DNA of 64,000 bases from Bacteroidota bacterium (GTDB lineage: Bacteria; Bacteroidota; Bacteroidia; Chitinophagales; Chitinophagaceae), in the NCBI GenBank assembly GCA_024640225.1, contig JAHEFK010000001.1, forward strand, positions 1 through 64,000, read 5' to 3'. Each line of letters begins with the position of its first letter. Position 1 is the first letter of the stretch. The position numbers and the translations under genes are program-made. Shown piece by piece: positions 36,901 to 57,492 of this stretch. The notes beneath the pieces were generated by a model. The model was not told where the DNA came from and did not search any database. It was given only the letters and a program-made list of their open reading frames with translations.

Positions 36901-38496
36901 ACCCGTTCCAATGGCGTATTGAATGGGGCTCACGGCACCCACTACATTTGTAATAGTAATGCTGCCATTGTTGCCATTATAACAATTTGGTGCAACTTTG
37001 GTGATATTAGGTAAAATAGTAATAGGCGTGTTTAAAATAATAGTTGTGTCACTAAAACAAGCATTGGTATCGGTGGTGCGCACTGTGTATCCACCTGGAT
37101 TATAAAATAAACTATCATAGATTGGTCCACTTGCATTATACTGCGTAAAAATAGTAGTAGTGCCTTGTAGAATATTCACATGCAATGGAGGCGTACCGCC
37201 ATTCGGTATAATTTTTATTTGTCCTTTTTGAGAACAAACAGGTTGTGTTACAATACTTACTGCGCTTGAAGGATTGGGTAAAACAATGATTGTATAGGCT
37301 TGTGTTTGTTTACTTACTAATGGGCATCCGTTGTCTTCATAAGTAATAAAAAAGGTATAGGTACCTGGAGTGGCTGTAGCTAAATTCCAACTAAACGCAC
37401 CTATTGGATTCGTTGTGTTGTTATTGCTGATGCTGAAGGTAGCACCCAATGGCAATCCATTAGCAGCCACATTAATGGTATTGCCATCAATATCAGTTGG
37501 ATTGATATTAAAGGTAAGTGTACCATTACTTTTACAAATTTTTATCGTAGTGGTGTCAATTAATGTAGAGCCAGCCGAATTGTTAGAGATATTACCTACA
37601 GGAGGATTGTTATTACAATTATTGATAACAACAAATGTCATTTCGCGCATACTCGTGCCAACCAATACTCCATTTTTATATTCTTCCACTTGTCCTACTA
37701 CCAAACTTTTTTGTACGGCATTTGGTGTGAAATTTAATTGACCATTGGCATTGTTGAAATTGAAGGCACCTGCAGCGGTAGCTAAAGGCGCTGCGCCTGT
37801 AAATGGCACAACATACGTAACCGTTCCAGCAGGTTCTAGGCCGTTTACTAAACTAAAATTCAAAGAATCTGAGTTGGGATCAATAGCACCAGGATTATAA
37901 GCAGCTGGTTTATTGATACAGAAAAAGGGTGTTGGGATAGTGGTATAAACAGGAGACGAATTGGGCCCACTTAGATTATTTAATGTAGCTATTAAGGAAA
38001 TAATACTGCCTGTTGTAGGGCCAATCGTAATATTAGTAATGCTATTGCTTCGGCCTGCAGAGCTATTACCCATTACCCCATTAAATTGAAATACCCAATT
38101 AGCCGAAAGGGCATTTAAAGTAACATTAGCTGCATAGATAAAGCGTTTTACCCCTGGGATAGTACTTAATGGATTAGAACAAACTGTGTTATTGATCTGA
38201 TTATCACAAACGGGCGTTACTTCTACGTTAGAACCTGCTTGAATGGTGAGCGTTAGGGTGTCATACGAATTACCATTGTTGTATACAACAACCTGTGGTT
38301 GAGAACCCGGAAAAGAGGGGTAAGAGGTGCCGGAACAATCACCATAAACTACCAAGTAGACCTTGTAGGTATTGCCAATTACATGTGAATAATAAAAATC
38401 TGCCCCATAAAAGTGAGAGGCTTTCGATACTTTATTAACAAGTAAAAAAGATAAAATAAAGGACAAGCTGAGCAATATGCGTTTATATACATTCAT
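33958..38496 (-). CDS. Giant SprB-repeat adhesin with T9SS type B sorting domain
   Basis: Secreted surface protein of 1,512 residues. The signal peptide (ILLSLSFILSFLLVNKVSKA) ends near residue 26. An N-terminal domain follows (about 27-300, starting SHFYGADFYYSHVIGNTYKV), then a cadherin-like Ig segment with INPTDIDGNTINVAANGLP. Thirteen SprB-type repeats cover about residues 413-1416, each with CxGxxNG, GGTPxYxYA and GTYxxHIKDANNCIKDT motifs. The last 95 residues are a type B sorting domain with FIPNAFTPNNDGNNDRF and the terminal LKGDVTLIR. SprB-repeat proteins are mobile adhesins in gliding Bacteroidota, but gliding here is unproven. Unlike the PKD adhesin, this gene has no PorP/SprF neighbour. 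Confidence 0.92.
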   Translation of the reverse strand: MNVYKRILLSLSFILSFLLVNKVSKASHFYGADFYYSHVIGNTYKVYLVVYGDCSGTSYPSFPGSQPQVVVYNNGNSYDTLTLTIQAGSNVEVTPVCDNQINNTVCSNPLSTIPGVKRFIYAANVTLNALSANWVFQFNGVMGNSSAGRSNSITNITIGPTTGSIISLIATLNNLSGPNSSPVYTTIPTPFFCINKPAAYNPGAIDPNSDSLNFSLVNGLEPAGTVTYVVPFTGAAPLATAAGAFNFNNANGQLNFTPNAVQKSLVVGQVEEYKNGVLVGTSMREMTFVVINNCNNNPPVGNISNNSAGSTLIDTTTIKICKSNGTLTFNINPTDIDGNTINVAANGLPLGATFSISNNNTTNPIGAFSWNLATATPGTYTFFITYEDNGCPLVSKQTQAYTIIVLPNPSSAVSIVTQPVCSQKGQIKIIPNGGTPPLHVNILQGTTTIFTQYNASGPIYDSLFYNPGGYTVRTTDTNACFSDTTIILNTPITILPNITKVAPNCYNGNNGSITITNVVGAVSPIQYAIGTGAYGSNNVFSNLTPGTYTIHIKDANNCIKDTVVVVPNTTPIGGNIVYTKPPCNAFQNGAIAIVAFNGTAPYQYALGAGPYSANNIFTNLYSGTYVIHIKDAVNCIRDTTVTLLDSINVHATVSTTNNLCFGQSLGTVSIVGNSGTSPYSYALGSGIYTAATTYVNLSANTFLFHVKDVNGCYLDTLITITQPNPLVNTLAITPVSCYGLNNGSVAISTTGGTPTYQYAIGTNAWGSNATFSNLAPGTYTFHIKDANNCSKDTTATITQPSLLGITASFTKPLCFGENTGTITIGGVGGTTAYTYAIGTGTYSNNPLFTGISAGTYVLHVKDANNCIKDTTISITQPSPLQVTASVVKNICSSTNTGKITLTASGGTPTYQYAIGTNAYSNSAIFSNLGAGTYTLHIKDANNCIKDTTLTIQDSIIVGATVSTTNISCNGLSNGVIIANGNAGIAPYTYAINTSTYNLSNVFSNLSTGSYTIHVKDINGCIKDTTVSITAPPPVAVQVTLTNPLCNGGNTGSLLVTGSGGTPGYSYAYNSNTFGPTNNFTALLAGTYVLHVIDSKGCTKDTTVSLVNPSPVQITLTTTPVLCFGDNSGTATISASGGTPTYTYAFDANPYQASNILTGLNAGTHVVHVSDNNNCIKDTTISIAQPTEIKIINAPLTNATCPGYKDGVASVNGTGGIAPYTYSIDGVNFGSNNVFTTIGAGTYTLTIKDANGCIKDTTVTITELPPLTFPNVTITPVSCYGYKDGQVTIAASGGKPSYLYLMVPATLYSSQNTFSNLFAGAYTIKVKDSKNCLHDTLIQIPSPDSLQIQLQVTNNNCVGNANASIVSIVQGGTQPYAYTWNPFSNDPSIFNLTNGVYVLYVQDAHNCKDTATATVRFDNCCLPFIPNAFTPNNDGNNDRFRIKFVGDITIERFSIYNRWGQEVFFTKNPTDSWDGTYNDIPQDGGTFFYYLKGTCGNTSPTPLELKGDVTLIR
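34250..37265 (-). repeat. Array of 13 SprB-type coding repeats
   Basis: Thirteen in-frame units average about 233 bp (77 residues). Some neighbouring units keep long stretches of near-identical protein sequence, for example YAIGTNAxxSNAxFSNLxxG in two units and HIKDANNCIKDTT in several. This array is therefore more homogeneous than the PKD array and a candidate for copy-number change by recombination. Confidence 0.85.
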
Positions 38497-42934: not shown

Positions 42935-43327
42935 ATGCTTTCTGTCTTATTAAATAGCCCGGCTAACACCACCATAAACTATTTACCTATCGTGATTCAA
43001 TTGGTAGTAGCTATTGGCTTTGTAGCATTTATGATGAGTGTTACGCACTTACTAGGCCCTAAACGCCGCACCAGCGATAAATTAGCCAATTTTGAAAGCG
43101 GTATCGAATCGGTTGGTAATGCCCGTCAGCCCATGGCTATTAAGTACTTTTTGGTGGCTATTTTATTCGTGTTATTTGATGTAGAAGTTATTTTCTTCTA
43201 CCCGTATGCGGTGAATTTCAAAGCCCTCGGAAAAGAAGGGTTTTTGGCGGTGTTGATGTTTGTAGCGTTCTTTTTGGTTGGATTTATCTATATCCGCAAA
43301 AGGGGAGCATTAGATTGGGAAGAATAA
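42935..43327 (+). CDS. nuoA: NADH-quinone oxidoreductase subunit A
   Basis: Small membrane subunit of respiratory complex I, 130 residues with three membrane helices. The conserved loop KRRTSDKLANFESGIESVGN and the following AIKYFLVAILFVLFDVEVIF are hallmarks of NuoA. It sits at the junction of the membrane and peripheral arms, near the quinone site. It is the first gene of a 14-subunit operon. Confidence 0.97.
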   Translation: MLSVLLNSPANTTINYLPIVIQLVVAIGFVAFMMSVTHLLGPKRRTSDKLANFESGIESVGNARQPMAIKYFLVAILFVLFDVEVIFFYPYAVNFKALGKEGFLAVLMFVAFFLVGFIYIRKRGALDWEE

Positions 43328-43374
43328 ACATTTTTTTAAAAAACAAGTTTTACTCATAACTATTTCGTTTTTAT

Positions 43375-43935
43375 ATGCGTCCAGTTCAATATAATACCAA
43401 CCTGAAAATGGTTGATTTGCCAGAAGGTCATACCGGCGAAGGTTTTTTTGCTACTTCTTTAAACAACGTTATTGGTTTAGCAAGAAAAAACTCAATTTGG
43501 CCTTTACCTTTCGCCACTTCTTGTTGTGGTATTGAGTTTATGGCTACCATGGCTGCCCATTATGATTTAGCTCGTTTTGGATCGGAGCGCCTAGGCTTTA
43601 GTCCGCGCCAATGCGATTTATTAATGGTAATGGGTACCATATCTAAAAAAATGGCGCCTGTTTTACGCCAAGTTTATTTACAAATGGCCGAACCCCGCTG
43701 GGTGTTGGCAGTAGGTGCTTGCGCTTCTAGTGGCGGTATTTTTGACAGTTATTCTGTTTTACAAGGCATCGATCAAGTTATACCGGTAGATGTTTACGTA
43801 CCCGGTTGTCCTCCAAGACCAGAAGCTATTATTGACGGAATTATGAAAATTCAAGAATTAGTGGGACAAGAAAGCTTACGCCGCAGAAATAGTGAACAAT
43901 ATAAAGGACTTTTAGAAAGCTACGGAATTCAATAG
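43375..43935 (+). CDS. nuoB: NADH-quinone oxidoreductase subunit B
   Basis: Peripheral-arm subunit of complex I carrying cluster N2, the final electron donor to quinone; 186 residues. The cluster ligands are visible in [12 protein letters not shown] (tandem Cys), [14 protein letters not shown] and [12 protein letters not shown]. The gene lies 47 bases after nuoA and three bases before nuoC. It appears intact. Confidence 0.98.
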
Positions 43936-43938
43936 CAT

Positions 43939-44451
43939 ATGACACACGAACAAATTATTGAAACATTGGAAGCTGCCTTTGCAGGCCAATTAAGTGATTG
44001 TGATACCGCACACGGCATTAGCTCGATAACCATACCGGCTGCAGCTAATTTAAAAGTGTTGCAATTCTTGTATGATAGCGAAGATTTACAATTTCGCTTC
44101 CTTACTGATTTAACAGCAGTGCATTATCCCAACAGAACTAATGAAGAACTTTGTGTAGTCTATCACTTACACAGTCTTTATTTAAATAAGCGTTTACGAG
44201 TAAAATTATATGTGCCCGTTGCTGCACCTAAAGTGTTTACAGCGTCTAAGCTCTTCTCTGGTGCCAATTGGATGGAGCGTGAAACCTTCGACTTTTTTGG
44301 GGTTGAATTTGTTGGCCATCCAAATTTGAAACGAATTTTAAATGTAGATGAGATGGATTACTTCCCAATGCGAAAAGAGTATCCAATGGAAGATCCAACG
44401 CGTATTGATAAAGATGATGAAATGTTTGGTCGTGGAGGAACGATTTGTTAA
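43939..44451 (+). CDS. nuoC: NADH-quinone oxidoreductase subunit C
   Basis: Peripheral-arm complex I subunit of the 30-kDa type, 170 residues, separate from NuoD (not the fused CD form of E. coli). Recognisable segments are FRFLTDLTAVHYPNRT, GANWMERETFDFFGVEF and FPMRKEYPMEDPTR. It supports the quinone-binding module together with NuoD and NuoB. Confidence 0.97.
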   Translation: MTHEQIIETLEAAFAGQLSDCDTAHGISSITIPAAANLKVLQFLYDSEDLQFRFLTDLTAVHYPNRTNEELCVVYHLHSLYLNKRLRVKLYVPVAAPKVFTASKLFSGANWMERETFDFFGVEFVGHPNLKRILNVDEMDYFPMRKEYPMEDPTRIDKDDEMFGRGGTIC

Positions 44452-44472
44452 TTACATAAAGAAATTATTACC

Positions 44473-45705
44473 ATGTCAGCACATATACATTTAGACGAAG
44501 CTTCAATTCAAAAACAAACCACTACCCTCAATTTGGGTCCTACCCACCCAGCAACACACGGGGTATTTCAAAATATTTTGGAAATGGATGGCGAGCGCAT
44601 CGTTAGCGCTGTACCAACGGTTGGATATATACATAGAGCGTTCGAAAAAATTGCAGAACGCCGCCCTTATTATCAAATTACGCCCCTTACCGATCGATTA
44701 AATTATTGCTCATCTCCTATCAACAATATGGGATGGCACATTACAGTAGAGCGCTTATTGGGCATTAAAACACCAAAGCGCGTTGACTATTTACGTGTTA
44801 TCATCATGGAATTGTCTCGTATTGCCGATCATTTGGTGTGCAATTCTGTAATTGGTGTTGACACGGGAGCATTGACCAGTTTCGTATATGTATTCGAATT
44901 TAGAGAGCATATTTATGAAATTTTTGAAGCTGTTTGTGGGTCTCGTTTAACCACTAATATTGGTCGCTTTGGCGGTTTTGAACGTAATTTCCCGCAAGAG
45001 GCTTTCGATAAAATCAATAAATTTTTAGAAGCGTTTCCACGCGGTATGAAAGAGTTTGAATCCCTACTTACACGCAACCGCATCTTTATGGAACGCACCA
45101 TGGGTGTAGGCGGTATTAGTGCAGAAAGAGCCTTGAACTATAGTTTTACTGGCCCTAATTTGCGAGCAGCTGGAGTTGATTATGATGTACGTGTGGCGCA
45201 ACCTTATAGTTCTTACGAAGATTTCGATTTCAACATTCCAGTAGGTACTACTGGTGATGTATATGATCGCTTCTTAGTGCGCAACCAAGAAATTTGGGAA
45301 AGCGTAAGCATTATCAAACAAGCACTCGAAAAAATTGCAGCTTTAGAAGCAGCAGATCCTAGTCAGAAAGAAGTTTTCTATGCCAAAGAAGCCGATAAGT
45401 ATCACTTACCTCCAAAAGAAGATGTGTATACTAAAATGGAAGCCTTAATCTTCCACTTCAAAATGGTGATGGGTGAAATTGAGGTATTACCAGGCGAAAT
45501 TTATTCGGCTGTAGAAGGAGGCAATGGCGAAGTAGGTTATTATTTAATCAGTGATGGTGGTAGAACTCCTTATCGCTTACATTTTAGAAGACCATGCTTT
45601 ATTTATTACCAAGCGTATCCAGAAATCGTTAAAGGAAGTTTGCTGAGTGATGCGGTAGTTACAATGAGTAGCTTAAACCTCATTGCCGGAGAATTAGATG
45701 CATAA
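44473..45705 (+). CDS. nuoD: NADH-quinone oxidoreductase subunit D
   Basis: The 49-kDa complex I subunit forming the quinone-binding cavity with NuoB; 410 residues. Family motifs are LNLGPTHPATHGVFQNILEM, GYIHRAFEKIAERRPYYQIT and, near the C-terminus, EVGYYLISDGGRTPYRLHFR. It ends in an eight-base overlap with nuoE (ATGCATAA), which points to translational coupling. Confidence 0.98.
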   Translation: MSAHIHLDEASIQKQTTTLNLGPTHPATHGVFQNILEMDGERIVSAVPTVGYIHRAFEKIAERRPYYQITPLTDRLNYCSSPINNMGWHITVERLLGIKTPKRVDYLRVIIMELSRIADHLVCNSVIGVDTGALTSFVYVFEFREHIYEIFEAVCGSRLTTNIGRFGGFERNFPQEAFDKINKFLEAFPRGMKEFESLLTRNRIFMERTMGVGGISAERALNYSFTGPNLRAAGVDYDVRVAQPYSSYEDFDFNIPVGTTGDVYDRFLVRNQEIWESVSIIKQALEKIAALEAADPSQKEVFYAKEADKYHLPPKEDVYTKMEALIFHFKMVMGEIEVLPGEIYSAVEGGNGEVGYYLISDGGRTPYRLHFRRPCFIYYQAYPEIVKGSLLSDAVVTMSSLNLIAGELDA

Positions 45706-46213
45706 TCAAGATATTATTAAACGTATGAAACAATTTTCAGCAGAACAATTAAATCAAGTACAAGCTATTATAGCACGTTACCCTGAGGGGAAGCAAAAAA
45801 GTGCGCTAATACCTTTGCTTCATCTCGCTCAAGAAACTTTTGGTGGCTGGTTAGATACCGAAACCATGGATTATATAGCTTCTTTATTAACAATTAAACC
45901 AATTGAAGTATATGAAGTAGCTTCTTTCTATTCCATGTTTCACATGAAGCCCGTAGGCAAGCATGTATTAGAAGTATGCCAAACAGGGCCTTGTATGCTT
46001 AACGGTAGCGATGAAATTATCGACTACATTAAACAAAAATTAGGTATCGAAGCAGGACAAACTACAGCAGATGGATTATTTACCTTGAAACCGGTAGAGT
46101 GTTTAGGCGCTTGTGGTTATGCACCTATGATGCAATTGGGCAAACACTATAAAGAGTTTTTGACCAAAGATAAAATTGATCAAATTATTGAAGATTTAAG
46201 AAATAGTATTTAA
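45698..46213 (+). CDS. nuoE: NADH-quinone oxidoreductase subunit E
   Basis: The 24-kDa subunit of the NADH dehydrogenase module, 171 residues, with the 2Fe-2S cluster N1a. The four Cys ligands lie in CQTGPCMLNG and CLGACGYAP. The upstream ATG overlaps nuoD; a second in-frame ATG at 45725 (MKQFSAEQLNQ) is closer to typical family starts, so the exact start is uncertain. Normally nuoF follows directly, but here an unrelated 1.6-kb gene is inserted. Confidence 0.96.
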   Translation: MHNQDIIKRMKQFSAEQLNQVQAIIARYPEGKQKSALIPLLHLAQETFGGWLDTETMDYIASLLTIKPIEVYEVASFYSMFHMKPVGKHVLEVCQTGPCMLNGSDEIIDYIKQKLGIEAGQTTADGLFTLKPVECLGACGYAPMMQLGKHYKEFLTKDKIDQIIEDLRNSI

Positions 46214-46240
46214 CCCTTAGCTATTAAAACTAATCTTTCC

Positions 46241-47824
46241 ATGAATAAAATAATACAAATTGTCGTTTGGGCTTTGATACTATCTTCATGTTCTTTTACT
46301 AAAGAAATGACTATAAGAGTTTCATCTTCGCACGATGCAACGGAAACTCAAAAGGGTAATTTTGTTAAATTAAAAAATGGAAATGAAATAAGTTTATTAA
46401 ATAGTGTTTCAATCGATCATGGCATGCCAGATGTAAATAGATTGACAAAATTAACTATTGGTAATAAATCATTTAAAGGAAAGGATGTTGCATCTTTTCA
46501 AATTGAAAAAAAATATTACGAGAATTTAAATATTAGAAAGAAAAATTCAAATGAATTTGGTGTAAGAATTTATAAAGGGCCTATAAATATTTTTACACAT
46601 ACAGAAGTGTCGCAGAGTGTTGAGTATAATAGTAATGGATCAAGTGTTAGAAATTATAAAACAACAACTCGAACTGTAAGTCTATATTACTTACAAAGCC
46701 CTAATATTAACAATGGAGCATTTACTCAAGTTTTAAATACAAATAAGGTAGATAAAATGATGCCGTATTTAAATGATTACAAACCTTCATTGTCTATATT
46801 AAACAAATATAATGATGTTAGAAAAAAAGCAATAAAAACAAAATTAATGGTTTCTGGTGCAATAGTTTTTTCAGCCGCCGCATTAATTGCCTCAGGCAAT
46901 CAAACATTAGAAGGTGTAGGCGCAGGCATAATAACTACAGGAATATTATTTATTCCTCCATTCTGTATTTTTCACAAAATAAATAACAAAACACTACCTT
47001 ACCGTGCGCTTCAAAAATATATAGATAATAATTTTTCAAAAACAAATACTTCATTTTTAGAAAAGCAGTTGAGTGCAAATTCAAAAGTTATAGCATCTGA
47101 TTCCATTGTTGGTAAAATGTCATTAAACGAAATCGTAGATACTTCAAAATTAGATTTCTTGATCATGAAAAGTGGATCGAAAATAATTGCAGAGCCGGGC
47201 ACTATTTTAGAAACATCTAATAATCAAGCGTTCAAAATAAACAACCAAATAATTACGAACCCTGTTAGTGCTTTTCAACAAAATGGGTTGTTTTATAAAA
47301 AAATAAATGCTGTTAAAGATTTTAATGAATACGCATGTAGGTATATAAAAGGGAAAATTAGTATTTATGAAAATACATTGGATGTGGCGCATAGTATAAA
47401 AAAACCAAGAAATTTCTTCATAACATCTGATAATGATAAAAAAAGTGTTGATATAGAATCAATACATAATAAAATTTTCAAACAAAGTTTCTTTGAGAAA
47501 AATAATAATAATGAGTTAATTCCTAATACAAATAAATTAAAGTCATTTTTTTCAGACAATATTACAGCATCCAAAATGTATTCAAATTATCAAAAAAATA
47601 TAATTAAAAGCAAAGTTGAAGCATATGGACTTTTTGCACTTTCTCTATTCGGTTATTATGCAAGTGTTAAGAGTTTTGTTAATGAAAAATATGTTTTGGG
47701 GAGCACGTTAGGGATTGCAGCAAGTCTAAATTTAATGTACATTGTACCCTCCATTTCAACTAAAATTCGTAATAATTTAAATAAAGAACTTTTAAATACG
47801 GTAGAATACTACAACACACACTAA
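46241..47824 (+). CDS. Predicted lipoprotein of unknown function inserted in the nuo operon
   Basis: A 527-residue protein of no family I recognise. The N-terminus MNKIIQIVVWALILSSC is a lipoprotein signal (lipobox LSSC, Cys17), so it should be exported and lipid-anchored. It looks like an internal duplication: residues about 38-262 and 303-520 share the order beta-rich segment (FQIEKKYYENL / FQQNGLFYKKI), RIYKGPINIF / RYIKGKISIY, a helix with NKVDKMMPYLND / NKLKSFFSDN, then two hydrophobic stretches (203-245 and 462-505). These stretches could be membrane helices. Base composition is visibly more AT-rich than the neighbouring nuo genes and Arg is mostly AGA, suggesting transfer. It lies 27 bases after nuoE and 10 before nuoF, with no terminator. 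Confidence 0.85.
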   Translation: MNKIIQIVVWALILSSCSFTKEMTIRVSSSHDATETQKGNFVKLKNGNEISLLNSVSIDHGMPDVNRLTKLTIGNKSFKGKDVASFQIEKKYYENLNIRKKNSNEFGVRIYKGPINIFTHTEVSQSVEYNSNGSSVRNYKTTTRTVSLYYLQSPNINNGAFTQVLNTNKVDKMMPYLNDYKPSLSILNKYNDVRKKAIKTKLMVSGAIVFSAAALIASGNQTLEGVGAGIITTGILFIPPFCIFHKINNKTLPYRALQKYIDNNFSKTNTSFLEKQLSANSKVIASDSIVGKMSLNEIVDTSKLDFLIMKSGSKIIAEPGTILETSNNQAFKINNQIITNPVSAFQQNGLFYKKINAVKDFNEYACRYIKGKISIYENTLDVAHSIKKPRNFFITSDNDKKSVDIESIHNKIFKQSFFEKNNNNELIPNTNKLKSFFSDNITASKMYSNYQKNIIKSKVEAYGLFALSLFGYYASVKSFVNEKYVLGSTLGIAASLNLMYIVPSISTKIRNNLNKELLNTVEYYNTH

Positions 47825-47834
47825 AAAATAATTA

Positions 47835-49187
47835 ATGGGAATACAACTTTTATTAGAAAAATCGAAAGTAGAAAACATCAGATTATATGATGTGTACCGA
47901 CGCGAAGGTGGTTATAGAAGTGTGGAGAAAGCACTTAAAATGAGCCCAGACGACATCGTAGAAGAGGTTAAAAAGAGTGGCTTAAGAGGTCGTGGTGGCG
48001 CAGGTTTCCCTACGGGTATGAAGTGGAGTTTTTTGGCAAAGCCAGAAGGAGTGCCCCGTCATTTGGTGTGCAATGCCGACGAATCGGAACCCGGCACTTT
48101 CAAGGATCGTTATTTAATGGAATTCCTTCCGCATTTATTAATCGAAGGCTTGATTGTATCTTCTTATGCCTTGGGTTCTAATGCAACGTATATCTACATT
48201 CGTGGCGAATATGCTTGGATACCGGATATTTTAGAGCAAGCTATTGCAGAGGCAAAAGCTAATGGTTGGTTAGGCAAAAATATTTTAGGTACCGGTTTCG
48301 ATTGCGAAATTTATGTGCAACGCGGTGCAGGTGCTTATATCTGTGGTGAAGAAACTGCTTTGATAGAAAGCTTAGAAGGAAAACGTGGTAATCCACGTAT
48401 CAAACCTCCATTCCCAGCTATTCAAGGGCTTTGGATGCGACCTACCGTAGTAAACAATGTAGAAACCTTAGCAGCTGTGGTGCCTATTATTAATATGGGT
48501 GGCGATGAGTATGCAAAAATTGGTGTAGGAAAATCTACCGGCACCAAACTACTTTCTGTTTGTGGTAATGTAAATAAACCAGGTGTTTATGAAATAGACA
48601 TGACCATTTCTGTAGAAGAATTTATTTACAGCGATGCATATTGTGGTGGTATTCCAAACGGAAAAAAATTAAAAGCTTGTATTCCAGGCGGTTCTTCCGT
48701 ACCTATTTTACCAGCTAATTTATTATTAAAAACAGCCAAAGGCGAAACCCGTATGATGAATTACGAAAGTCTTGCTGATGGTGGTTTTGCAACAGGATCT
48801 ATGATGGGGTCGGGTGGTTTTATTGTGTTAGACGAATCACAATGTATCGTTCGCCATACGATGAGTCTTGCTCGTTTTTACAACCATGAAAGTTGTGGTC
48901 AATGTAGTCCTTGCAGAGAAGGTACAGGATGGATGTATAAAATCTTGAAAAACATTGAATACGGTCATGGTAAAATGAGCGACATAGATTTACTATGGGA
49001 TGTGCAGCGAAAAATTGAAGGAAACACGATTTGTCCATTAGGAGATGCAGCAGCTTGGCCTGTAGCAGCGGCTATTCGTCATTTTAGAGATGAGTTTGAA
49101 TGGCATATTAATAATCCAGTAGAAGCACAAACGCGTAACTATGGATTGGCGCATTATGCAGATCCTATTCATGTACCAACAGTTTAA
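47835..49187 (+). CDS. nuoF: NADH-quinone oxidoreductase subunit F
   Basis: The 51-kDa NADH- and FMN-binding subunit with 4Fe-4S cluster N3; 450 residues. The glycine-rich NADH/FMN sites are seen in GLRGRGGAGFPTGMKW and GAGAYICGEETALIESLEGK, and the cluster ligands in ESCGQCSPCREGTGW and NTICPLGDAAAWP. The ATG is ten bases after the inserted lipoprotein gene, so nuoF expression depends on transcription through that insert unless an internal promoter exists. Confidence 0.98.
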   Translation: MGIQLLLEKSKVENIRLYDVYRREGGYRSVEKALKMSPDDIVEEVKKSGLRGRGGAGFPTGMKWSFLAKPEGVPRHLVCNADESEPGTFKDRYLMEFLPHLLIEGLIVSSYALGSNATYIYIRGEYAWIPDILEQAIAEAKANGWLGKNILGTGFDCEIYVQRGAGAYICGEETALIESLEGKRGNPRIKPPFPAIQGLWMRPTVVNNVETLAAVVPIINMGGDEYAKIGVGKSTGTKLLSVCGNVNKPGVYEIDMTISVEEFIYSDAYCGGIPNGKKLKACIPGGSSVPILPANLLLKTAKGETRMMNYESLADGGFATGSMMGSGGFIVLDESQCIVRHTMSLARFYNHESCGQCSPCREGTGWMYKILKNIEYGHGKMSDIDLLWDVQRKIEGNTICPLGDAAAWPVAAAIRHFRDEFEWHINNPVEAQTRNYGLAHYADPIHVPTV

Positions 49188-49221
49188 AAATAATAATCGC
49201 TAACGCGAAAAAAAATACAAC

Positions 49222-50295
49222 ATGAGTGAACAAATTAAAGTAACGATTGATAATATTACGGTAGCAGTAGCACCCGGTACTACTATTTTACAAGCAGCAC
49301 GTCAAATTGGTGGTGAAGTAACACCTCCTGCAATGTGTTATTACAGTAAACTAGAGGGAAGTGGTGGTAAATGCCGTACCTGCTTGGTAGAAGTTTCGAA
49401 AGGCTCTGAAAAAGATCCTCGACCGATGCCAAAATTAGTAGCTAGTTGTCGTACTCCTGTATCCGATGGTATGGAGGTTAAGAATATTACCTCTCCAAAA
49501 GTACTTGACGCTCGTGCTGGTATTGTAGAAATGTTGTTGATCAATCACCCATTGGATTGCCCTGTTTGTGACCAAGCTGGTGAATGTCATTTGCAAGATT
49601 TGAGTTATGAGCATGGTGCAAGTGGCACACGATATGAATTTGATAGACGTACGTTTGAAAAAGAAGATATTGGTCCTTACATCCAATTGCACATGAATCG
49701 TTGTATTCTTTGTTATCGTTGTGTATACACAGCAGATCAGTTAACAGGCAAACGCGAGCATGGTGTATTAGATCGTGGCGATCATGCTGCTATTAGTACG
49801 TGTATTGGAAAAGCACTAGACAATGATTTTATTGGTAATGTAATAGATGTTTGTCCAGTAGGGGCATTAACCGACAAAACATTCCGATTCAAAAACCGCG
49901 TTTGGTTTACTAAGCCAGTAGACGCTCATCGTGATTGTCCTACCTGCTCAGGAAAAACAAGATTGTGGATGCGTGGCGATGAAGTATATCGCGTAACAGC
50001 AAGAAAAGATAAATGGGGCGAAGTAGAAGAATGGATTTGTAATACCTGTCGTTTCGATAAAAAACAAGCAAGTGATTGGACGATAGAAGGACCAAGTAAA
50101 ATTGATCGCCATAGTGTAATTGCACAAGGGCATTATGAAGGCGTATTGAAACCGCAAAATTTCTTACCAGAAGTAATTGGTAGAAATCCAAAATTACTGA
50201 TGAATATACATGATGTAAGTGGTGTCAATAAAAACGATATTGAATTGAGTAAATTAAATGGTCCTGCACATAGTAGCGACTTTGATAAAAAATAA
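49222..50295 (+). CDS. nuoG: NADH-quinone oxidoreductase subunit G, short form
   Basis: Iron-sulfur subunit of the complex I peripheral arm, 357 residues. The 2Fe-2S ferredoxin domain has Cys39, Cys51, Cys54 and Cys76. The His-Cys3 motif NHPLDCPVCDQAGECHLQD (His109, Cys113, 116, 122) and a further set starting CILCYRCVY (161-167) and ending in VCPVGALTDK follow. The Fe4S4 segment CPTCSGKTRLWM to ICNTCRF closes the conserved part. The long molybdopterin-oxidoreductase-like C-terminal domain of E. coli NuoG (about 900 residues) is absent. Short NuoG is, to my knowledge, usual in Bacteroidota, so this is not a truncation. Confidence 0.95.
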   Translation: MSEQIKVTIDNITVAVAPGTTILQAARQIGGEVTPPAMCYYSKLEGSGGKCRTCLVEVSKGSEKDPRPMPKLVASCRTPVSDGMEVKNITSPKVLDARAGIVEMLLINHPLDCPVCDQAGECHLQDLSYEHGASGTRYEFDRRTFEKEDIGPYIQLHMNRCILCYRCVYTADQLTGKREHGVLDRGDHAAISTCIGKALDNDFIGNVIDVCPVGALTDKTFRFKNRVWFTKPVDAHRDCPTCSGKTRLWMRGDEVYRVTARKDKWGEVEEWICNTCRFDKKQASDWTIEGPSKIDRHSVIAQGHYEGVLKPQNFLPEVIGRNPKLLMNIHDVSGVNKNDIELSKLNGPAHSSDFDKK

Positions 50296-50321
50296 TTATT
50301 AACGAATCACAATACAACTAC

Positions 50322-51392
50322 ATGTTATTACTGTCTATAGATTGGAGTTTTATTATAGAAAAATTGATTTTAATTTCTGTAATACTCGGTGCATCACTAG
50401 GTGTGGCAACTTATGCTACTTGGGGTGAGCGAAAAGTAGCTGCTTGGATGCAAGATAGAAAAGGGCCAAGCCGTGCGGGTCCCTTCGGATTATTACAACC
50501 TATTGCAGATGGTATCAAATTATTTTTTAAAGAAGAAATTATACCAAATGACGCTAATCGATTCTTATTTATTTTAGGTCCTTCACTAGCTATGCTTACA
50601 GCTTGTATGGCAAGTGCGGTAGTGCCTTGGGGACCAAGTATTGAATTAGAAAGCGGCAGAGTTATTGCTTTGCAAGTTGCCGATATTAACATTGGTATCT
50701 TATATGTATTTGGTGTGGTGAGTGTAGGAGTATATGGTATTATGTTGGGCGGATGGGCTTCTAATAATAAATACTCATTAATGGGTAGTGTGCGTGCTGC
50801 TTCTCAAGCTATTTCTTATGAATTAGCAATGGGTATTAGCCTTATTGCATTATTAATGATGACGGGCACCTTAAGTTTAGCAGAAATTGTAAATCAACAA
50901 CATGGATTTTGGGAAAATGGATGGTTTACATGGAATGTGGCAAAACAACCATTGGGCTTTATCATCTTTTTAGTGTGTGCATTTGCAGAGTTAAACAGAG
51001 CACCTTTCGATTTACCTGAAGCAGAAAGTGAGTTGGTTGCAGGATACCATACAGAATACTCCTCCATGAAATTAGGTTTTTACTTATTTGCAGAATATGT
51101 AAACTTATTTATCAGCTCAGCAATATTAATCACCTTGTTTTTTGGTGGTTATAATTTCCCTTTTATGGATCAAGTTGCTGGTAGTGTGAGCCCCGTAGTA
51201 TTTTCTATCATTTGTGTTTTAGTATTACTAACTAAAACGATTATGATGATTTTATTTTTCATGTTCATCCGTTGGACGATCCCGAGATTTAGATATGATC
51301 AATTAATGAACTTAGGTTGGAAATCACTCATTCCATTAGCCCTTGTAAATATGCTAATTACTGGAGCCATTATTATTTGGGTATTAAATTAA
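50322..51392 (+). CDS. nuoH: NADH-quinone oxidoreductase subunit H
   Basis: Membrane subunit at the quinone-binding heel of complex I, 356 residues with about eight helices. The conserved loops ERKVAAWMQDRKGPSRAGPF, LQPIADGIKLFFKEE and FAELNRAPFDLPEAESELVA, which lines the quinone channel, are all intact. Confidence 0.98.
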   Translation: MLLLSIDWSFIIEKLILISVILGASLGVATYATWGERKVAAWMQDRKGPSRAGPFGLLQPIADGIKLFFKEEIIPNDANRFLFILGPSLAMLTACMASAVVPWGPSIELESGRVIALQVADINIGILYVFGVVSVGVYGIMLGGWASNNKYSLMGSVRAASQAISYELAMGISLIALLMMTGTLSLAEIVNQQHGFWENGWFTWNVAKQPLGFIIFLVCAFAELNRAPFDLPEAESELVAGYHTEYSSMKLGFYLFAEYVNLFISSAILITLFFGGYNFPFMDQVAGSVSPVVFSIICVLVLLTKTIMMILFFMFIRWTIPRFRYDQLMNLGWKSLIPLALVNMLITGAIIIWVLN

Positions 51393-51401
51393 AAAGAAAT
51401 C

Positions 51402-51905
51402 ATGCAAGAATTAACAAATAAAAGAGTAGCTGTAGATAGAAAGCCCATGACCTTCATGGAGCGCCTCTATATTCCTACTATAATAAAAGGACTTTTTATA
51501 ACGGTAGGTCATATTTTTAAAAAGCCCGCAACGATTAGTTATCCTGAACAGCAACGACCATTTAGTCCGGTGTTTAGAGGCTTACATATTTTAAATAGAG
51601 ATGAGCAAGGTCGTGAAAAATGCACGGCGTGTGGTTTGTGTGCTTTGTCTTGCCCTGCAGAAGCGATTACTATGGAAGCAGCTGAGCGAACCAAAGGAGA
51701 AGAACATTTGTATAGAGAAGAAAAGTATGCTGCAAAATACGAAATCAATATGTTGCGTTGTATTTTCTGTGGCTTATGCGAAGAGGCTTGTCCTAAAGAT
51801 GCTATTTACTTATCAGAAACCGTTGCGCAAGCCAATTATACTCGTAAGAGCTTTATTTATAACAAAGAAGATTTATTAATTCCAAATCCAAACGAAACAC
51901 ATTAA
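51402..51905 (+). CDS. nuoI: NADH-quinone oxidoreductase subunit I
   Basis: Peripheral-arm ferredoxin-like subunit holding clusters N6a and N6b, 167 residues. Two CxxCxxCxxxC motifs are visible: CTACGLCALSCP and CIFCGLCEEACP. It lies nine bases after nuoH and one base before nuoJ. Confidence 0.97.
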   Translation: MQELTNKRVAVDRKPMTFMERLYIPTIIKGLFITVGHIFKKPATISYPEQQRPFSPVFRGLHILNRDEQGREKCTACGLCALSCPAEAITMEAAERTKGEEHLYREEKYAAKYEINMLRCIFCGLCEEACPKDAIYLSETVAQANYTRKSFIYNKEDLLIPNPNETH

Positions 51906-51906
51906 T

Positions 51907-52404
51907 ATGAACCCACATCAACTTGTATTTTGGATTTTATCCGTTATTGCTATTGGTGGCGCCTTAGGGGTGATACTCAGTAGAAATCCTGTAGCTAGTG
52001 TATTGTTTTTGATTGTCACTTTCTTTGCGGTGTCGGGTCATTATATTTTACTTAATGCACAATTTTTAGCAATTGTAAACATAATTGTATATGCAGGTGC
52101 CATCATGGTTTTGTTTTTATATGTCATCATGCTTATGAATTTAAATGGCGATGTAGAACCACAAAAAAGTAAATTATTACAGTTTGCTGGTATTATTTCT
52201 GGAGGGATTTTGTTTTTAGTGTTGTTGGCGGCTTTCAAAACTACACAACTCAGTACAACGCCTATCAATGCTAGTACATCCATTGGATTAATTAGCGAAT
52301 TAGGTCAAGTATTATTTACTCGATTTGTATTTCCATTCGAGATCAGTAGTATATTATTTTTAAGTGCTATGGTAGGTGCTGTAGTAATTGGTAAAAAAGA
52401 TTAA
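51907..52404 (+). CDS. nuoJ: NADH-quinone oxidoreductase subunit J
   Basis: Membrane subunit of complex I, 165 residues with five predicted helices. The segment IVNIIVYAGAIMVLFLYVIM corresponds to the conserved pi-bulge helix region of NuoJ. It starts one base after nuoI. Confidence 0.96.
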   Translation: MNPHQLVFWILSVIAIGGALGVILSRNPVASVLFLIVTFFAVSGHYILLNAQFLAIVNIIVYAGAIMVLFLYVIMLMNLNGDVEPQKSKLLQFAGIISGGILFLVLLAAFKTTQLSTTPINASTSIGLISELGQVLFTRFVFPFEISSILFLSAMVGAVVIGKKD

Positions 52405-52415
52405 AATAAGTAAGT

Positions 52416-52715
52416 ATGCCTATTCAATATTATATTTTTTTAAGCCTTGCCTTGTTTAGCATTGGCGTAATGGGAACCATGATGCGCAGAAATGCCATAA
52501 TCATTTTTATGTGCATTGAATTGATGCTGAACGCAGTCAATTTATTAATGGTCGCTTTTTCTAATTATTGGGAAAATAGCAATGCACAGATTTTTGTGTT
52601 TTTCATAATGGTAGTGGCTGCTGCAGAAGTAGCTGTAGGATTAGCCATTATCACCTTGGTGTATAGAAAAGTAAACTCTGTAGATATTAATATTTTAAAT
52701 CGATTAAAAAATTAA
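52416..52715 (+). CDS. nuoK: NADH-quinone oxidoreductase subunit K
   Basis: Small membrane subunit of complex I, 99 residues with three helices. The buried Glu residues of the proton path are present in FMCIELMLNAVNLLMVAF and VVAAAEVAVGLAIITLVYR. Length matches the family. Confidence 0.97.
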   Translation: MPIQYYIFLSLALFSIGVMGTMMRRNAIIIFMCIELMLNAVNLLMVAFSNYWENSNAQIFVFFIMVVAAAEVAVGLAIITLVYRKVNSVDINILNRLKN

Positions 52716-52751
52716 TACTGCCTTTAAAATTAACTTTTAGAAAGAAAATTT

Positions 52752-54638
52752 ATGATACAATATAGTTACCTCATTCCATTATTTCCATTGCTTGGTTTTT
52801 TAATCAATGGGTTGGGCTGGAATAAAATACCAAAGTCACTTGCAGGTGTTATTGGTTCTACATCGATACTTGCCTCCTTTGTAGTTTCCTTAGCTGTTTT
52901 TGTTGAGGTGCTTTCGCCAAGTTTTCAAGGGCCTTTCGTGCAGCATTATTTTGATTTTATTCAATCCGGAACACTTTATATTCCTTTTGCCTTTCAGATA
53001 GATGCTTTGTCGGCTAGCTTTTTATTAATCATAACGGGTATTGGATTTTTAATTCATGTATATTCTACTGCTTATATGCATGATGATGAAGGTATGGTGA
53101 AATATTTTGCATACCTCAATCTCTTTGTTTTCTCCATGTTATTATTAGTGATGGGTGCAAACTATATCATTATGTTTATTGGATGGGAAGGCGTTGGATT
53201 GTGCTCTTATTTATTAATAGGATTTTGGTTTAAAAACCACGCGTATACCGATGCTGCTAAAAAAGCATTTGTGATGAATAGAATTGGTGACCTTGGATTT
53301 TTAGTGGGTATGTTATTGGTCTTGTATCATTTCCATACCTTAAGTTATCAAGAATTATTTGACATTATACAATCAAGCGCTGATCAGACAAATATGTATA
53401 CTGCCATTGCCATTTGCTTCTTTATTGGTGCGATGGGTAAAAGTGCGCAAATTCCATTATATACTTGGTTGCCAGATGCGATGGCCGGACCAACGCCAGT
53501 ATCTGCATTAATACATGCAGCTACCATGGTTACCGCAGGTATTTATATGATTGCGAGAAGCAGTGTATTGTATAATCTTGCACCAATAGCTTTAGATCTA
53601 ATTACATGGATAGGATTAGCAACTGCTTTGTTAGCAGCATCTATTGCTATCAAACAAAATGATATCAAAAAAGTGTTGGCGTATTCTACCGTAAGTCAGT
53701 TAGGCTTTATGTTTGTTGCCATTGGAATGGGCGCTTATACTACTGCTGTTTTTCATGTTATTACCCATGCCTTTTTTAAAGCTTTATTATTCTTAGGTTC
53801 GGGCAGTGTCATTCATGCTATGGGCGGCGAACAAGATATTCGTTTTATGGGTGGATTAGGAAAGAAGATGCCGATTACAAAAATTACCTTCTTAATTGGT
53901 TGTTTAGCCATTGCCGGTATACCTGGTTTTGCGGGCTTCTTTTCTAAAGATGAAATATTAGCACATGCATATGCGCAGCAACCGTTGTTGTTTGTTGCAT
54001 TATTAATAGGCGCTTTGATGACAGCCTTTTATATGTTCCGTTTATATTTCTTAACCTTTACAGGATCCTTTAGAGGCACTGAAGAACAAGCACATCACTT
54101 ACATGAGAGTCCAAAAGCAATGACGCTTCCTTTAATGGTATTAGCTTTATTCTCCATCATTGGTGGTTATATAGGATTGCCAAAAGTACTTTCAGAAAAA
54201 CATTGGTTACACGATTTTCTTTCTGCAGCAGTTACAGAAAAAGAACTCCATGAGTTGAGCCATGCTACAGAATGGATGTTGATGGGTGTTTCTGTTGGTT
54301 TGGTAGTAGTGATGATTGCACTTGCTTATAAAGCAACACAAAAAGCGCAATTTTCTGCAGCAAAAGGATTAGGAAAAGTGCTAGAGCATAAATGGTATGT
54401 AGATGAATTATATCAAGCCATTATACTTACACCATTGAATCATCTAGGTGTCTTTTTACAGCAAATAATTGAAAAATCAGGTATTGATGCTTTAGTAAAT
54501 AATATTGGTACAAGTATACAATGGTTAAGTACACGCGTTCGCTTATTACAAAGCGGAATTGTTGGTTCTTACATTTTTGTAATGGTACTTGGTATTATTT
54601 TATTACTTAGCATCGGATTTTTAAGTACAATTTTATAA
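52752..54638 (+). CDS. nuoL: NADH-quinone oxidoreductase subunit L
   Basis: Largest antiporter-like proton-pumping subunit, 628 residues. Key features are MFIGWEGVGLCSYLLIGFWF with the conserved Glu of TM5, YTWLPDAMAGPTPVSALIHA and MVTAGIYMIAR. The C-terminal part holds the long lateral helix and final anchor typical of NuoL. Confidence 0.98.
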   Translation: MIQYSYLIPLFPLLGFLINGLGWNKIPKSLAGVIGSTSILASFVVSLAVFVEVLSPSFQGPFVQHYFDFIQSGTLYIPFAFQIDALSASFLLIITGIGFLIHVYSTAYMHDDEGMVKYFAYLNLFVFSMLLLVMGANYIIMFIGWEGVGLCSYLLIGFWFKNHAYTDAAKKAFVMNRIGDLGFLVGMLLVLYHFHTLSYQELFDIIQSSADQTNMYTAIAICFFIGAMGKSAQIPLYTWLPDAMAGPTPVSALIHAATMVTAGIYMIARSSVLYNLAPIALDLITWIGLATALLAASIAIKQNDIKKVLAYSTVSQLGFMFVAIGMGAYTTAVFHVITHAFFKALLFLGSGSVIHAMGGEQDIRFMGGLGKKMPITKITFLIGCLAIAGIPGFAGFFSKDEILAHAYAQQPLLFVALLIGALMTAFYMFRLYFLTFTGSFRGTEEQAHHLHESPKAMTLPLMVLALFSIIGGYIGLPKVLSEKHWLHDFLSAAVTEKELHELSHATEWMLMGVSVGLVVVMIALAYKATQKAQFSAAKGLGKVLEHKWYVDELYQAIILTPLNHLGVFLQQIIEKSGIDALVNNIGTSIQWLSTRVRLLQSGIVGSYIFVMVLGIILLLSIGFLSTIL

Positions 54639-54659
54639 CATTCTCATATTTTATAAGTC

Positions 54660-56078
54660 ATGATTTTAATAACCTTATTGGCACTTCCCTTTGTTGCAGC
54701 ATTATTAAGTTTACTAGTGCCAAAACAAGCAAAAATACTTGCACTAGTTAGTAGTGCATTGGCTGTATTGATTACCCTGTATATGTCGATGCATATTGCA
54801 GAAGGAGCATTAACTATAGCGCAAGCATGGTTGCCCGATTTAGGTATTCAATTTGCTTTGCATGCAGATGGGTTAAGCTGCTCTTTAAGTTTGCTTACAG
54901 CATTGATTAGTTTCCTCGTTTTTCTAAACCTTAATAATAAAGAAGTTCCAAAAGCGGCTTCATTTTACAGCTTATTATTATTTGCACAAACCGGTTTGAT
55001 GGGTGTGTTTTTAGCCTCAGATGCTATGCTCTTTTATTTCTTTTGGGAACTAGCACTAATACCTATTTATTTTCTTTCTTCCATTTGGGGTGGAGAAAAT
55101 AGGATTAAAGTCACCTTTAAATTTTTCATTTATACTTTTATTGGTAGCTTAATGATGTTGGCAGGATTAATTTATTTAGGATTACAAACACCTGGTGCTG
55201 ATGCTTTTTCCTACCACGCTTTAGTAGCTGTGGGCAATAGTTTAAGCAATACACAACAAATTAGTTTATTTGTATTATTCTTTTTAGCCTTTGCTATTAA
55301 AATGCCTATTTTCCCATTTCATACTTGGCAACCCGATGCGTATGACGAAGCACCTACTAGTGTTACTATTTTCTTAAGTGCATTGATGGTTAAGATGGGT
55401 TTATATGCCGTACTTCGTTGGTTGATGCCCGTTTTGCCAGAAGGCGTTTCTTATTGGTCAAACACAGTAATTATTTTATCTATCATTGGAATTCTTTACG
55501 CTTCTATTATTGCTTTACAACAAACGAATATTAAACGTTTTATTGCTTACTCTTCAATAGCTCACATGGGTTTGATGTGTGCTGCAGCTTTTGTACAAAA
55601 TGATCTTGCTTTACACGGCGTTAAAATCCAAATGTTTATGCATGGTATTAATATTGCTGGCATGTGGTTGGTAGTAAGTATAATAGAAAATAGATATCAC
55701 ACAAAAGATATGAATGCGCTTGGTGGCATTGCAAGCACTATGCCTAAATTAGCCGTAGCTTTTGTAATTATTTCTTTTGCAAATATTGCATTGCCCTTAA
55801 CCAATGGTTTTGTTGGCGAGTTTATGTTGTTTGCTGGTATCTTTTCTAGTGCAAACCCTAGCCATGTGCTGTATATGGTATTGGCAGGTCTTGGTGTGAT
55901 TTTAGGTGCAGCATATACTTTACGTATGCTACAGAAAGTAGTTTTTGGAACAGCTTCCAATACTCAAGCAGTAAAAGATTTAAGTATAAATGAATGGTGT
56001 GTATTAGCAATTGTGCTTTCCTTAATTATAGCTTTAGGGGTATATGCTAAACCATTATTAACCTTAACGAGTTTTTAA
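54660..56078 (+). CDS. nuoM: NADH-quinone oxidoreductase subunit M
   Basis: Antiporter-like proton-pumping subunit of complex I, 472 residues with about 14 helices. The conserved FYFFWELALIPIYFLSSIWG (TM5 Glu) and FPFHTWQPDAYDEAPTSVTI, plus AYSSIAHMGLM, identify NuoM. It starts 21 bases after nuoL. Confidence 0.98.
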   Translation: MILITLLALPFVAALLSLLVPKQAKILALVSSALAVLITLYMSMHIAEGALTIAQAWLPDLGIQFALHADGLSCSLSLLTALISFLVFLNLNNKEVPKAASFYSLLLFAQTGLMGVFLASDAMLFYFFWELALIPIYFLSSIWGGENRIKVTFKFFIYTFIGSLMMLAGLIYLGLQTPGADAFSYHALVAVGNSLSNTQQISLFVLFFLAFAIKMPIFPFHTWQPDAYDEAPTSVTIFLSALMVKMGLYAVLRWLMPVLPEGVSYWSNTVIILSIIGILYASIIALQQTNIKRFIAYSSIAHMGLMCAAAFVQNDLALHGVKIQMFMHGINIAGMWLVVSIIENRYHTKDMNALGGIASTMPKLAVAFVIISFANIALPLTNGFVGEFMLFAGIFSSANPSHVLYMVLAGLGVILGAAYTLRMLQKVVFGTASNTQAVKDLSINEWCVLAIVLSLIIALGVYAKPLLTLTSF

Positions 56079-56112
56079 AATAACAATTTCATTAACGATA
56101 TATTAGTTCATC

Positions 56113-57492
56113 ATGATTTTAATAATAACTGCTTCTATAATTGGTGTTGTGTTGCTTTTCGCAAGTTTTTTACTGAAACATACCAGTAGCCTGCTGCATT
56201 TAGTAACTGTTTTGTTTGCTGCTTTGTTTGGCGTTGCTATATGGGAAGCTTTGCAACCTACGGCTATACTTACTCAGTCGTTTTATTTAGATGCCATCCG
56301 AGTAGATAGATTTACTAATCAGTTTAATGTATTAATTACCGGCTGTTTGTTTTTATATATACTCTTAATGAAGAAACATATTGCTGCAGTTGGTAAATAC
56401 AAAGCGGAGTACTTTGCTTTGATTGCCTTTATAATGGTTGGCATATTTATGTTAAGTAGTTTTAATAGTTTGCTTGTTATGTTTTTGGGTATAGAAATCG
56501 TTTCTATTCCTCAGTATATTTTAGCCGGAAGTGATAAAGAAAATTTAAAAAGTACAGAAGCATCTTTAAAGTATTTTTTAATGGGCGCTTTTTCAACAGG
56601 CTTTTTATTAATGGGTATTACCTTGCTTTACGGCGCTACCGGTAATTTTATGGTTAGTGAATTTAATTTTTTACAAGCAACAAGTATCAATCCAATAGCT
56701 TTGGGCGGCGTATTATTATTAATTGTTGCTTTTGGCTTTAAAGTATCGGCCGCTCCCATGCATTTATGGACGCCCGATGTATATGACGGTACGCCTACGC
56801 CCTTTACGGCATTTATGGCTACTATCGTAAAAGTAGCTGCATTTGTAGGGTTCATGCGTTTATTCCAAACGTCTTTTACCGCTATTAGCTCATCTTGGTC
56901 ATTGGTATTAGCTGTAGTCATTGCGCTTACTTTATTTGTAGGAAATATAACAGCGGTATTTCAACAAAGTGTAAAACGCATGTTGGCCTATTCGTCAATT
57001 GCTCAGGCTGGATTTATGCTATTTGCCATTATTTCTTTAAATGCAATAGGCCGTCAAGGTATGCTTGTTTATACTGTTGCTTATTCAGTTGCAAGCATTT
57101 GCTTCTTTGCTATTTTAATTAAAATGAAAGATTATACCTATGATGGGTTTAATGGATTGGCTAAAAAACAACCTTTTATTGCGGCTTTGGCTACAATTTA
57201 CATGCTTTCTTTAGCGGGTATTCCTTTAACAGGTGGATTTATGGCTAAATACTACATGCTTAAAGCAGTATTATTTGAGGGCAGCTACATGTGGTTAGCA
57301 ATTTTTGCCTTATTGATGGCAGCGGTAAGTGTTTATTATTATTTTAAAGTAATAATTGCCATGTATTTCAAAGAAGGGGAAGCTGCAATGATAGATTCCT
57401 TTACGAAAGAAGAAAAGTTATACCTTACCATAGGTGCTTTGGCATTACTCGTTGTGGGTATATTCCCAAGTTTACTTACCGGAACTATTTAG
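56113..57492 (+). CDS. nuoN: NADH-quinone oxidoreductase subunit N
   Basis: Third antiporter-like subunit, 459 residues, last gene of the operon. Landmarks are MFLGIEIVSIPQYILAGSDK with the TM5 Glu, PMHLWTPDVYDGTPTPFTAF and MLAYSSIAQAGFML. A strong terminator lies 25 bases downstream of the stop codon. Confidence 0.98.
   Translation: MILIITASIIGVVLLFASFLLKHTSSLLHLVTVLFAALFGVAIWEALQPTAILTQSFYLDAIRVDRFTNQFNVLITGCLFLYILLMKKHIAAVGKYKAEYFALIAFIMVGIFMLSSFNSLLVMFLGIEIVSIPQYILAGSDKENLKSTEASLKYFLMGAFSTGFLLMGITLLYGATGNFMVSEFNFLQATSINPIALGGVLLLIVAFGFKVSAAPMHLWTPDVYDGTPTPFTAFMATIVKVAAFVGFMRLFQTSFTAISSSWSLVLAVVIALTLFVGNITAVFQQSVKRMLAYSSIAQAGFMLFAIISLNAIGRQGMLVYTVAYSVASICFFAILIKMKDYTYDGFNGLAKKQPFIAALATIYMLSLAGIPLTGGFMAKYYMLKAVLFEGSYMWLAIFALLMAAVSVYYYFKVIIAMYFKEGEAAMIDSFTKEEKLYLTIGALALLVVGIFPSLLTGTI

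Follow-up and report, generated by a model that had tools for sequence, protein, structure and literature searches.

The window analyzed here, i.e., the whole stretch of 64,000 nucleotides, derives from G000, a Chitinophagaceae genome of 1.85 Mb in 43 contigs, and carries a nuoA-N operon for respiratory complex I. Within this operon nuoE and nuoF are separated by a 1.6-kb open reading frame, referred to here as the embedded gene. All three genes lie on the + strand, with spacings of 27 bp from nuoE to the embedded gene and 10 bp from the embedded gene to nuoF, so that the coordinates, strand, start and both gaps proposed in the first-pass annotation were confirmed. Its description of the nuo junctions as tight and standard also holds for G000, where the remaining genes lie 1-47 bp apart, save for nuoD and nuoE, which overlap slightly. 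The features discussed below are the following:

42935..57492, + strand, nuoA-N operon housing the embedded gene (gene order collinear with relatives)
45698..46213, + strand, nuoE, NADH dehydrogenase 24 kDa subunit (Pfam 2Fe-2S_thioredx, E 3.5e-57)
46203..47906, + strand, putative exchanged block: nuoE tail, embedded gene and first ~24 nuoF codons (blastn against the sister species, G002)
46241..47824, + strand, embedded gene, predicted two-repeat lipoprotein of 527 aa (open reading frame; full-length form in G000 alone)
46241..46294, + strand, predicted signal peptide with lipobox L-S-S-C17 (sequence, hydropathy, and Ser16-Cys17 aligned with the lipobox of single-repeat relatives)
46241..47050, + strand, repeat 1: lipobox, beta domain and hydrophobic glycine-rich hairpin at residues 197-248 (profile match E 9.8e-76, the repeat itself being in the profile)
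47051..47821, + strand, repeat 2: no lipobox, beta domain and weaker hydrophobic segment at residues 484-503 (profile with the repeat itself included, internal alignment, hydropathy)
47835..49187, + strand, nuoF, 51 kDa FMN/NADH-binding subunit (Pfam Complex1_51K, E 6.6e-47)

Elsewhere in the window, two very large repeat proteins (~1,510 aa) are encoded on the - strand at 22785-27335 and 33958-38496, and the C-termini of both resemble gliding/type IX secretion cargo.

The AT-richness and odd codon use noted in the first pass were borne out by comparison with neighboring genes. The GC content of the embedded gene (0.273) is the lowest among 39 window genes tested. Its GC3 amounts to 0.19, whereas the nuo genes tested range from 0.23 to 0.44. 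AGA accounts for 64% (7/11) of its Arg codons and ATA for 48% of its Ile codons, versus 27% and 20%, respectively, in the nuo genes. The N-terminus of the protein, MNKIIQIVVWALILSSC, combines a hydrophobic stretch with a lipobox (LSSC) at Cys17, which agrees with the exported, lipid-anchored character predicted earlier.

Internal comparison revealed that residues 1-270 and 271-527 resemble each other (BLASTP E 7e-5), with a Smith-Waterman score of 109 between the two repeats against a best of 78 in 500 shuffles. Both halves contain a beta region, marked by a K.G ... G(K/P)I.(I/L)(Y/F) motif, and end with a hydrophobic region close to the terminus; according to hydropathy, repeat 1 has a clear hairpin and repeat 2 a weaker one. 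Since the halves align and each has a beta region and a hydrophobic end, the embedded gene is, as judged from these alignments, two fused, tandem copies of a normally single-unit lipoprotein. AlphaFold2 models were of low confidence (mean pLDDT 46 and 40), a PDB fold search with the low-confidence model gave no significant match, and a sequence search for relatives with solved structure found none.

The full-length 527 aa protein was found in G000 only, in searches that included 399 Chitinophagaceae genomes. A single-sequence search retrieved lipoproteins of 240-270 aa resembling one half of it from seven other genomes (8/399 counting G000), and all seven matched repeat 1, with E-values from 1e-9 to 1e-4. 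A profile search detected the family in 58 of the 399 genomes and in 33 of 104 genera, the weakest of these matches being partial. Because the profile (A1) had both G000 repeats as rows, their profile scores are not independent evidence; the seven single-sequence matches provide independent support. For a narrower family profile, the three named loci belong to Taibaiella sp., Flavipsychrobacter sp. and a Chitinophagaceae bacterium. Outside Chitinophagaceae, a 199-genome sample of the order yielded four weak matches only, and the family is nearly confined to Chitinophagaceae as far as sequence similarity reveals it. A weak match of the embedded protein in G056 was dismissed as chance, since it falls in an oxidoreductase frame.

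The earlier claim of an unknown family therefore stands in part: no Pfam or NCBIfam model covers the embedded protein or its 240-270 aa relatives and no PADLOC model matches the embedded protein, but relatives of this protein do exist in Chitinophagaceae. Single-sequence scans of the genome contig and viral contig collections and of phage records also gave no match, and an identity as an anti-phage defence or phage gene was considered and discarded. Members of this uncatalogued family have in common with the embedded protein the lipobox, a beta domain with the KxG...G(K/P)IN(I/L/M)Y motif and a glycine-rich hydrophobic hairpin. The embedded protein differs in being two fused units, highly diverged and located in the nuo operon, and by alignment it is a fast-evolving, diverged, tandemly duplicated member of the family. 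Related exported proteins of ~210 aa were also observed at L136, L138, L139, L140 and L141; these are devoid of the hairpin and mostly of the lipobox, which suggests a wider superfamily built around the beta domain.

As for genomic location, the majority of the profile matches sit away from nuoF, on other contigs or at other positions. Nevertheless, single-repeat relatives fill the nuoE-nuoF slot in genomes of three other genera (G403, G123 and G260). The slot-dwelling members share one region of the family tree, with 12 of 500 label shuffles equally clustered, in a tree whose deep branches are weakly resolved and in which the G000 repeats form long branches.

The first-pass annotation had regarded nuoE and nuoF as normally adjacent. 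Comparison of the locus across Chitinophagaceae contradicted this: in a survey of one genome per genus, with a gap of at least 400 bp defining an occupied junction, the nuoE-nuoF junction was occupied in 22 of 30 genera versus 25 of 357 other nuo junctions (Fisher p ~1e-16). Wide gaps also cluster between nuoF and nuoG, a second hot spot that is occupied in 15 of 32 genera and accounts for 15 of those 25 other wide junctions. The nuoE-nuoF junction commonly holds one to five additional genes of varied families. In a wider genome set, the commonest of these encode DUF4440 (47 genes, cluster 0) and AHSA1-like proteins (20 genes, cluster 1), followed by rarer glyoxalase-like, NlpE, DNA alkylation repair and aspartyl protease-like genes. 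Since unrelated genes fill the slot in most genera, a foreign gene at this point is ordinary for Chitinophagaceae, and its position reflects a habit of the lineage, not the mark of a new complex I part. The literature searched for the nuoE-nuoF slot contained no report of it.

Several observations concern the other occupants of these junctions. At loci L063-L102 and L142-L181, DUF4440 proteins (SnoaL/NTF2-like, usually with a signal-like N-terminus) and AHSA1-like proteins recur between nuoE and nuoF, and their genes may be conserved companions of nuoE. In G008 (L069, L070) the nuo operon appears split, with nuoA-E followed by DUF4440, AHSA1-like and LpxD-like genes on one contig, and nuoF onward on another contig, after a RadA-like gene. 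A relative of one slot DUF4440 protein was sought in G000 and G002 and none was found; an AHSA1-family gene is present in one copy in G000, away from the slot. In G167 and G352 (L155, L156), which represent two genera, the slot also has a gene for an AAA ATPase-like protein and, after it, a gene for a protein of 217-219 aa, possibly an OLD/TOPRIM-type or abortive-infection pair. The nuoF-nuoG junction (e.g., L088, L074 and L083) often contains PDDEXK_3 (GxxExxY) genes, and sometimes genes for four-helix-bundle-like proteins or glycosyltransferases.

Next we consider the sister species. The operon of G002 is intact, 91-93% identical to that of G000, and its nuoE-nuoF gap is only 22 bp; the embedded gene was sought throughout the G002 genome without a match. 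Another genome, G001 (60% complete), gave no nuoE or nuoF match and hence carries no information on the slot. In blastn alignments of G000 and G002, identity is 90.6% up to position 46202 and 92.7% from position 47907. Between these positions the last few nuoE codons differ and the 5' end of nuoF is only 56% identical at the DNA level. Specifically, 12 of 26 amino acids are identical over nuoF codons 1-26, and then, abruptly, 49 of 49. The short gap in G002 and the sharp break in the nuoF head make block replacement by homologous recombination the simplest account, in which the segment from the nuoE end to approximately nuoF codon 25 was probably swapped as one unit through recombination in nuoE and nuoF. 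The nearest kin of the G000 nuoF head are G013, G260 and G029, while those of the G002 head are G035 and G068, genera with close NuoF bodies; these affinities point to G000 as the likely recipient. Recent arrival, as proposed in the first pass, thus gains support from the absence of the gene in the sister species, its atypical composition and the sharp breakpoint inside nuoF.

This footprint rests on one genome pair. The difference between nuoF head and body is 0.36 for G000/G002, against a maximum of 0.17 among 88 other same-genus comparisons, in which the pairs with different cargo are more diverged. A divergent nuoF head at every change of cargo is not supported by those 88 pairs, and we therefore do not claim block exchange as a general mechanism.

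We consider it likely that a recurrent insertion slot holds the embedded gene as accessory cargo, i.e., that the gene encodes a horizontally exchanged, periplasm-facing lipoprotein that is not a part of complex I. A donor already bearing the gene between nuoE and nuoF would have provided the DNA, and homologous recombination in conserved nuoE and nuoF sequence would have replaced the nuoE tail, the intergenic region and the nuoF head together. The upstream promoter would then drive the gene together with the nuo genes, and the short flanking gaps make such co-transcription plausible (promoters were sought with a crude scan for Bacteroidota-type promoters). Judging by the lipobox, the product would be exported, carry a lipid at Cys17 and stay attached to a membrane. 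The beta domains would face the periplasm, and the glycine-rich hairpins would be embedded in the membrane or lie against it, a contact that their hydrophobic character suggests. Such a lipoprotein would be dispensable for complex I, whose operon is intact without the gene in G002 and most genera, and would act as an envelope accessory with a dose that tracks respiratory gene expression. One caveat is that, since most profile matches of the family lie outside the nuo operon, the slot may be incidental.

The first pass had also raised the possibility of a complex I-linked envelope factor, i.e., a lipoprotein that aids the assembly, stability or sensing of complex I, a purpose for which the operon would have retained it. 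The presence of family members in the slot in four genera, far above random placement, speaks for such a link, as do the other exported slot proteins (DUF4440 proteins with signal-like N-termini and NlpE-type lipoproteins), and the relatives in three other genera leave some room for a connection to operon expression. However, a complex I subunit or assembly factor would be conserved with the nuo operon, and this gene is absent from most genera and from a sister species with an otherwise near-identical operon. Complex I without a family member is the rule in Chitinophagaceae (58/399 genomes have one), which makes a subunit role unlikely on the sequence comparison. Most family members are located elsewhere, and the sharing of the slot by varied unrelated genes favors accessory cargo over a role specific to complex I. 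We regard this reading as very unlikely.

Selfish or neutral hitch-hiking, with a slot that is merely tolerant of insertions and has no selected link to nuo expression, is possible if rather doubtful. The cargo is diverse and patchy, the embedded gene is very diverged and AT-rich, and the nuoF-nuoG junction likewise gathers unrelated genes such as those of PDDEXK_3 (GxxExxY). Yet DUF4440 and AHSA1-like genes recur in many genera and remain beside nuoE even in a split operon, and the 527-codon frame is intact with both repeats recognizable. A further reading, in which the slot of this genus held the gene ancestrally and G002 lost it when its junction was replaced, instead of G000 gaining it, is in our view improbable. 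Slot members in several genera would permit an old origin with losses, but it is the G002 nuoF head that looks like the heads found in genera with close NuoF bodies, and the composition of the embedded gene is the most atypical in the window.

Returning to accessory cargo, a broader and tentative version of it, unlikely as it stands, is that the junction serves as a natural cassette slot, in which lineages swap cargo, frequently exported envelope proteins, by homologous recombination with nuoE and nuoF as the arms. If so, each new gene would gain respiratory control and complex I would stay undisturbed. The tempting inference that an odd gene in a famous operon must be a new complex I factor is corrected here by a broader fact, namely that accessory genes, in most genera of a large family, settle preferentially at one junction of the complex I operon. 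The slot is a good system for studying what makes an operon accept unrelated genes at certain points, retain them and exchange them, and its analysis exposes a widespread uncatalogued lipoprotein family together with recurrent DUF4440 and AHSA1-like companions of nuoE.

Among known lipoproteins, those of the NlpE type (PF04170) are likewise exported and occupy the same operon slot in other genera. Their sequence differs, the embedded protein has a membrane hairpin, and the NlpE N-terminal profile did not match it. Glycine-zipper 2TM lipoproteins (SlyB-like) share the lipobox and the glycine-rich hydrophobic hairpin, but the embedded protein has a beta domain between anchor and hairpin, and the Pfam glycine-zipper profiles gave no match to it. 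The only sensible short match in the fold search was to E. coli YgdR (PDB 3fif), which aligned with the low-confidence model over 55 residues (probability 0.82, TM 0.62 on target, E 0.9). For a small LSM/SH3-like beta fold as in DUF903 proteins, this one short match to a model of mean pLDDT 46 was the observation obtained. A DUF903/YgdR identity failed at the level of profile comparison, as no DUF903 profile matched and hhalign against the YgdR sequence, checked against the PDB entry, gave 7-8% probability; moreover, DUF903 lipoproteins are far shorter and have no hairpin. Alien or ORFan genes have been described inside the conserved his operons of Bacteroidota, with the same alien gene reported at the same operon position in different organisms (PMC8305728). 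The embedded gene follows this pattern, as it lies on the same strand as the conserved operon around it, is flanked by short gaps and is absent at the corresponding position in G002. Both cases involve a conserved Bacteroidota operon that houses a gene of unrelated family. Here, in contrast, the host is the complex I operon, one junction is strongly preferred, and the breakpoint suggests that cargo and flanks were exchanged together. The embedded gene is another case of an alien gene in a conserved operon, at an unusually favored junction.
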